From positions 1-54,237 of IMG/VR virus record IMGVR_UViG_3300049830_000086: a stretch of DNA of 54,237 nt. One strand, written 5' to 3'. Below the pieces are notes generated by a model. It had not been told where the DNA came from and ran no database searches. It saw only the letters and a list, made by a program, of their open reading frames with translations. A program made the position numbers and the translations under genes. Source of the stretch: a virus. Each line of letters opens with the position of its first letter. Position 1 is the first letter of the stretch. Positions 2,971 to 10,601 of the stretch are shown here, one piece after another.

Positions 2971-3311
2971 AGTGTTTCTTTGAAGTTCTTGATCTCTTCG
3001 ATCATCTTTTGGCGTTCATCTCTGTAACGTTTGATCATGAAGATGAATTCTTCTCTGTGATCTTCAGTAGCTGCATCAATGAAGTCAATGATAGCTTGAT
3101 CACAAGGCTTGAAGTCAAACTCTTCACAGATAGCCATAACGCTTTTACCCATTGCAGTCATAGTGAAGCCGCCACCTACCACACCAAGTTCATTGAGTGT
3201 ATTAAGGTATCCGGTGACCATTAGGACGCTGATAGTAGTTTCGTCGTAGTTTAAGTTGAACTTAGCTTTGATCCTGGATTGGATCTCTTTTAACTTTTCT
3301 TGTTCAGTCAT
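2967..3311 (-). CDS. Unknown 114-residue helical protein
   Basis: The residues are mostly helical and charged, with a Gly-rich turn (LGVVGGGFTMTAMG) in the middle and a basic, probably coiled C-terminus. It overlaps both neighbours by 4 bases (ATGA type), so translation is likely coupled. No family recognised. Confidence 0.7.
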   Translation of the reverse strand: MTEQEKLKEIQSRIKAKFNLNYDETTISVLMVTGYLNTLNELGVVGGGFTMTAMGKSVMAICEEFDFKPCDQAIIDFIDAATEDHREEFIFMIKRYRDERQKMIEEIKNFKETL

Positions 3312-3562
3312 AAGCTTAGTACTGGGGTTAGTTTGGTGAATCCCTTAGGTTCTCCACACTTAACATCATCTCCAGTCCTAACGAACAATTGATCGTAGAA
3401 TTGGTAGTGGGTGACATCAGGTAGTAGGAGAGGAAGAGGATTAACAGTTTTGGATGTAACAGAGATATCAGCACTCCACATTTCTCCTATAAAGGTTCTA
3501 AGGAAACGTTTGGTCTCATATACAGGTTTAGCATGCTTTGTTTTCTTGGTTAATTTGGACAT
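3308..3562 (-). CDS. Unknown basic 84-residue protein
   Basis: The N-terminus is Lys/Thr-rich (MSKLTKKTKHAKPVYETKR) and may bind nucleic acid; the rest is probably beta-structured (MWSADISVTSKTVNPLPLLL). It is the first gene of the overlapping run 3562-1359. A short region with an ORF at 3617-3793 lies upstream. Function unknown. Confidence 0.65.
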   Translation of the reverse strand: MSKLTKKTKHAKPVYETKRFLRTFIGEMWSADISVTSKTVNPLPLLLPDVTHYQFYDQLFVRTGDDVKCGEPKGFTKLTPVLSL

Positions 3563-10172: not shown

Positions 10173-10246
10173 TGGAGCCAGAACTGGGAATCGAACCCAG
10201 ATGTCTACATTACCAATGTAGCGCTCTACCACTGAGCTATTCCGGC
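10173..10246 (-). tRNA. tRNA-Thr(GGT)
   Basis: Acceptor GCCGGAA/TTCTGGC, D-arm GCTCAGTGGTAGAGC, anticodon stem CTACA/TGTAG with loop TTGGTAA (GGT), T-loop TTCGATT, discriminator T, CCA. It lies 2 bases after the RNase P RNA. Confidence 0.94.
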
Positions 10247-10248
10247 AA

Positions 10249-10601
10249 AGTCTGTCTCATAGCCGCGCTTCTGTTTCTAATCCATCATTTGTCTAAGCCC
10301 TCTAAAAAACCATGTACTATTGGCAGCACTACCGTACATATTCGAGGTTGCATCTACTTTGTGGTGTTAGCGGATTTCTCCTCCCAAACAGCTGCTGTGA
10401 TGGCGCGAACTTCCTCTATCCTCAGGGTGATTCCCGATTCTCCACACCCACAGCCTCCATTGCCCTGCCCACTATATCAAGGCGGTTAAGGGTTAGCTAG
10501 CCGAAGAGGCATACTGATTTATGGATCGTGTCTAGCATCCGGTGAAATTGTAATTTTCCGGACTCGTTATATTATGAGGACAGCGATGGATCGGACAGAC
10601 T
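10249..10601 (-). ncRNA. rnpB: RNase P RNA (phage-encoded, diverged)
   Basis: The 353-nt region between a gene stop and tRNA-Thr has the hallmark elements of bacterial RNase P RNA. P1 is AGTCTGTC/GACAGACT at the two ends. P2 is GATCCATC (10585-10592) with GATGGATT (10279-10286). CR-I is GAGGAAGTTCGCGC near 10411 and CR-V is ACAGAAGCGCGGCTAT near 10265. These two form P4, AG-U-UCGCGC with GCGCGGCU, with the conserved bulged U. Relative to E. coli, the P4 pairs differ by compensatory changes. The segment between the P4 strands is only about 130 nt, so the specificity domain seems reduced, while the 5' (P3) side is expanded. It would trim 5' leaders of the many phage tRNAs. Confidence 0.72.

Follow-up and report, generated by a model that had tools for sequence, protein, structure and literature searches.

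A phage-encoded RNase P RNA with an A-type catalytic domain and a minimal specificity domain, predicted to mature phage tRNAs

Multiple lines of evidence from covariation, covariance models and genomic context suggest that the DNA analyzed here, a viral stretch of 54,237 nucleotides (IMG/VR record IMGVR_UViG_3300049830_000086; hereafter the window), encodes an RNase P RNA whose catalytic domain is of the bacterial type (P1-P6, P15-P17), whose specificity domain is minimal and which is predicted to mature phage tRNAs; from the sequence, we put the probability of this reading at roughly 0.8. RNase P RNA, which catalyzes the trimming of tRNA precursors, is among the oldest ribozymes and has been regarded as a cellular gene. 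Homology of the window RNA to RNase P RNA appears near certain from sequence comparison, and we infer that the phage RNA is catalytic. The RNA fills an otherwise gene-free stretch of the minus strand (10601..10249, 353 nt from P1 to P1), delimited by a homologue-only covariance model, Rfam and a reading of the individual elements. An ORF of 66 codons that ends at 10600 flanks it upstream, and tRNA-Thr(GGT) with an encoded CCA (10173..10246, minus strand) starts 2 nt past P1. The plus strand was rejected as the RNA-bearing strand (folding z -0.15), and its mechanical ORFs gave no Pfam match above the cut-off.

Read along the minus strand, the RNA opens with the P1 5′ strand AGUCUGUC (10601-10594), which forms 8 bp with GACAGACU (10256-10249), followed by the P2 5′ strand GAUCCAUC (10592-10585), of the GGATCCATCGC type as in the relatives L020 and L021, and then by the CGC of the family. 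P3 comprises 166 nt (10417..10582) on a basal 9-bp stem, CUGUCCUCA (10583-10575) with UGAGGAUAG (10424-10416). Conserved region I, GAGGAAGUUCGCGC, and the P4 5′ strand with its bulged U (10403..10416) are placed by alignment and covariation; GAGGAAG lies at 10416, and P4 pairs AGU[U]CGCGC (10411-10403) with GCGCGGCU (10268-10261), leaving a single bulged U. P5 (CAUC/GAUG) encloses what is left of the specificity domain, 44 nt made up of a P7-like stem and the GNRA hairpin GGAGAAAUCC, and is followed by GCAACC (10346..10402 in all), whereas the P6 5′ strand CAGCA (10393..10397) forms a pseudoknot with UGCUG at 10328-10324. P15 (CCUC/GAGG), L15 with its GGU (10311-10309) and the stem AUGUAC/GUACAU, in which P16 and P17 are merged into one, occupy 10299..10347; P15, P16 and P17 covary in homologues. 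The J segment UAGACAAAUG and the P2 3′ strand GAUGGAUU (10286-10279) then span 10279..10295 without P18, which was sought in the window RNA and is absent, and AACAGAAGCGCGGCUAUGA (10257..10275) contains conserved regions IV and V and the P4 3′ strand, with ACAGAAG at 10274. The minimum free energy of this RNA is unremarkable (z -1.0), as expected for a pseudoknotted molecule. A preliminary description of this DNA had claimed an RNase P RNA adjoining a tRNA, with P1, P2, a P4 with bulged U, ACAGAA and GAGGAAG, a shortened specificity domain and an expanded P3; all of these are found on the minus strand at the positions listed above, and the identification itself is borne out by the covariance-model score, the P4 covariation and the Rfam matches described below.

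With respect to the fold, the decisive information comes from homologues. Scanning IMG/VR with a loose pattern that combined GAGGAARNTC with ACAGAANNNNGGCT at a distance of 100-130 nt, after the two conserved ends, yielded 26 stretches, 16 of which share a common whole architecture; the remaining 10 were rejected as chance matches. Alignment A3 comprises 14 distinct homologues out of these 16, and the structure tested on it was written from knowledge of RNase P, including the P4 and P6 pseudoknots. Under this structure, 88% of the cells are paired, against 66% in shuffles, two-sided changes occur at 34 of the 44 pairs, those of both pseudoknots included, and the covariation reaches 0.577, compared with 0.192 for shuffled alignments and 0.06-0.13 for slid partners. 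The preliminary description had singled out P4 as the helix whose pairing should hold in homologues, and it does, with 99% of cells paired and two-sided changes at 4 of 8 pairs. The same signal extends to P2 (5 of 6 pairs with two-sided changes), P5 (3 of 4, with 100% of cells paired), P6 (5 of 5, with 68% of cells paired), P16 (4 of 4) and P17 (4 of 5), and the L15 GGU columns are invariant across the 14 homologues. P1 was assessed across 66 homologues, where matched flanks score 9.1 and mismatched ones 4.8 (0 of 2000 permutations); the P1 of the window by itself is not decisive, given that a score of 8 was also reached by one of the mismatched flanks used as permutation control.

These observations bear directly on the view that the RNA is a decayed rnpB, once captured from a host and now devoid of any function. 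The unusual 166-nt P3, seen in the window member alone, and the lack of a gathering-level Rfam match would fit such decay, but two-sided changes are found in all helices across divergent phages and the window copy is intact, which shows that the structure is under selection. We consider decay exceedingly improbable for the window RNA, and for the family as a whole the sequence comparisons already contradict it.

At gathering thresholds, Rfam recognizes only the 31 tRNAs of the window. Once the settings are relaxed, 10442-10248 is matched by the model for archaeal RNase P (RF00373) at 25.0 bits (E 4.3e-5), well below its gathering score of 84, and this match taken alone would be a hint. The RNase P model search suggested in the preliminary description returns matches that all fall below the cut-offs: the relatives score 28-55 bits against gathering scores of 84 or 100, none of the family members scanned reaches the gathering score, and Rfam 15 makes no call on the RNAs of the phage family. 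The RNA of Stenotrophomonas phage DLP_6 aligns end to end with the bacterial class A model (bact_a) at 54.7 bits (E 5.9e-16); an Rfam search of a very short DLP_6 stretch gave nothing and a wider stretch matched, and we take the short-stretch result to be a technical effect. The gathering score is a threshold fitted to cellular RNAs during curation, and we do not regard it as a defining biological feature. Moreover, a covariance model built from the 14 homologues in other phage contigs, with the window excluded, finds the window RNA at 10436-10258 with 75.3 bits (E 3.1e-19), and its next best score within the window is at most 13.2 bits. This model sets the P2 5′ strand beside P4. The actual strands of P2 and P1 are located another 166 nt upstream, and there GATCCATCGC, the motif of the family, closely follows the 8-bp P1 strand. 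Against E. coli rnpB the phage model scores only 6.4 bits, yet the 3′ catalytic motifs are assigned to their proper positions.

Pattern scans and the model, applied to IMG/VR and phage records, revealed a family of 137 loci and 116 distinct RNAs, nearly all of them on phage contigs. The catalytic-core motifs are kept across the family; because most members were detected through their conserved ends, the conservation of these ends among the 116 RNAs partly reflects how the RNAs were selected, whereas the detection made no use of covariation, the L15 GGU or P1. Members are present in phage records of 735, 642, 634, 595 and 484 kb (LR756501/3, LR756502, LR745206, LR756511 and LR756508) and in cultured phages, namely DLP_6 and the Microbacterium phages Zooman, Big4, A3Wally and one more; in Zooman and Big4 the RNA fills an unannotated gap flanked by two tRNA-Arg genes. 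A pattern scan of genome contigs gave three matches, of which only L040, a contig that bears a tRNA array and belongs to a Flavobacteriales MAG, is a real member; it is probably a phage contig binned with its host. A match to the c-di-GMP-I-GGC riboswitch (417-497) adjoins the phage-type RNase P RNA on the same contig.

The architecture varies considerably within the family. Most relatives have a total length of about 200 nt; DLP_6 carries hairpins where P18 would sit, the specificity domain of Zooman is somewhat larger, and four RNAs (L149, L150, L152 and L153) measure only about 140-143 nt from P2 to P4. Two of these, of ~143 nt (L149:9890-10032 and L153:12226-12368), have specificity domains apparently even smaller than that of the window. 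Another contig (L071) shows a tandem duplication, with a second, partial match on the minus strand (3400-3533, 46.5 bits, model positions 12-146) immediately 5′ of the complete copy, which occupies 3216-3398. The P3 of the window, at 166 nt, is unique among those seen, the relatives having 8-36 nt. We considered this insert as a separate RNA and rejected the idea, as it has no Rfam match above the cut-off and its folding energy is not unusual. Searches with the window DNA polymerase and with a window-specific sequence pattern produced no near relative with the same P3: the polymerase found no IMG/VR relative and only distant matches among phage records, and the pattern scan gave zero matches. 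A blastn comparison of the window with phages returned a tRNA as the sole match.

The genomic setting offers a further hint as to function. The window carries 31 tRNAs (the count claimed in the preliminary description), all on the minus strand and scattered among small ORFs between 433 and 28657, with CCA encoded in 27 of them; the other four are Leu-TAA, His, Thr-CGT and the Met at 16836. All 1202 tRNAs on the 116 loci share the strand of the RNA. For 33 of the 116 RNAs, the distance from the modelled 3′ end to the start of a tRNA is 20 nt or less, compared with 3% of random positions on the same loci; measured from P1, the tRNA begins no more than 8 nt away at 20 of 66 loci, a spacing of 2-8 nt being frequent. 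Genes for other structured RNAs were also observed on these contigs: a 105-kb phage contig (L024) combines, in one tRNA region, the RNase P RNA, a tmRNA, a GOLLD RNA with an internal tRNA-Ser and a group I intron; tmRNA genes occur at L011:1261-1644 and L022:1020-1390; and a permuted-tmRNA match lies beside the RNase P RNA at the end of L003.

The protein partner RnpA (PF00825) was not detected in 16 phage records, many of them fragments, in a search that was positive for 10 of 14 control genomes. This result, along with the retention of the core next to a reduced specificity domain and the general plausibility of host-takeover RNAs, could be accommodated if the RNA were a decoy that draws host RnpA off the host RNase P and shuts down host tRNA processing. 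However, the active-site P4 with its bulged U is retained, such a decoy would not need a location within tRNA arrays, and the loop that is invariant in the 14 homologues is the L15 GGU, which pairs with the CCA of tRNA and contacts tRNA, not protein. We therefore regard a decoy role as improbable.

We propose that the phage RNase P RNA would be co-transcribed with the phage tRNA array, assemble with host RnpA and cut the leaders off phage pre-tRNAs, recognizing the precursors via the acceptor stem and the encoded CCA through L15 rather than via the T loop. Because tRNA-Thr starts 2 nt after P1, cutting at its 5′ end would also create the 3′ end of the RNA itself. The 44 nt between the P5 strands leave no room for CRII and CRIII, so the T-loop-binding elements are missing; activity on ordinary pre-tRNA could be weak for lack of this part, although loss of most of the specificity domain is compatible with catalysis, given that T-type RNAs without it have been reported to be active (PMC7191817). 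The same loss might instead have freed the enzyme for other targets, such that it cuts mRNA, tmRNA or other phage RNAs in an RNase P-like fashion, a reading with which the tmRNA encoded nearby in several relatives would agree; the tight link to tRNA arrays in most loci and the retention of the CCA-binding loop argue against such a shift, which we deem quite improbable. Counting against tRNA maturation itself are the 4 of 31 tRNAs without CCA and the 166-nt P3 of the window, which is without comparable relatives. A broader generalization, which we consider probable, is that tRNA-rich and huge phages share a viral class of RNase P RNA in which the catalytic domain is of the A type and the specificity domain is all but lost, down to about 143 nt in some phages; RNAs of this class would work with RnpA borrowed from the host, process the phage tRNA array around them and release their own 3′ end through cleavage at the neighbouring tRNA.

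We found no earlier report of a phage-encoded RNase P RNA in the open-access literature searched, and the passages found in reviews and in the P finder paper are silent on such an RNA; this does not establish priority. Standard annotation (Rfam gathering cut-offs and ARAGORN) overlooks every member tested. The existence of a large phage family implies that phages with big tRNA sets also bring the enzyme RNA that matures those tRNAs, which bears on how phage translation is sustained after host shutdown. Furthermore, the stripped-down phage forms represent natural experiments on the smallest working RNase P RNA, and the relatives in cultured Microbacterium phages make these predictions testable now.

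As for the place of the window RNA among known RNase P RNAs, it shows the features of the RNase P RNA clan (CL00002): the P4 pseudoknot, which covaries, with its bulged U, conserved regions I, IV and V, and the layout of P1, P2 and P3 around the P4 core. P6, P16 and P17, the marks of the A type (PMC7191817), are present in the window, with two-sided changes in homologues. With the bacterial A-type (RF00010, E. coli M1 RNA) it shares P1-P6, P15, P16, P17, the bulged U of P4, conserved regions I, IV and V and the L15 GGU, and the end-to-end match of DLP_6 points the same way; in contrast to that type, it is phage-borne, scores far under the gathering score, has no P18 and lacks the full specificity domain with CRII and CRIII. 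Archaeal A-type RNAs (RF00373) are without P13/P14 and P18 (PMC4919922), as is the window RNA, for which theirs is the best Rfam model, but the window RNA has a much shorter specificity domain, a phage setting and a score below the cut-off. The Pyrobaculum type T (also type P) RNA, which has nearly lost its specificity domain and is reported to be catalytically active (PMC7191817, PMC4919922), resembles the phage RNAs in this reduction and in the small total size of most phage relatives; type T is an archaeal cellular gene of Thermoproteaceae, whereas the RNAs described here reside in phages and retain P6 and the A-type CCA-binding L15. Phage tmRNA and GOLLD RNAs are likewise structured RNAs inside phage tRNA arrays, where one contig holds them together with RNase P RNA, but their fold and function are unrelated. 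Given the 44-nt specificity domain and the absence of P18, we do not file the window RNA as a bacterial A-type RNA, and classify it as an RNase P RNA whose catalytic domain is of the A type.
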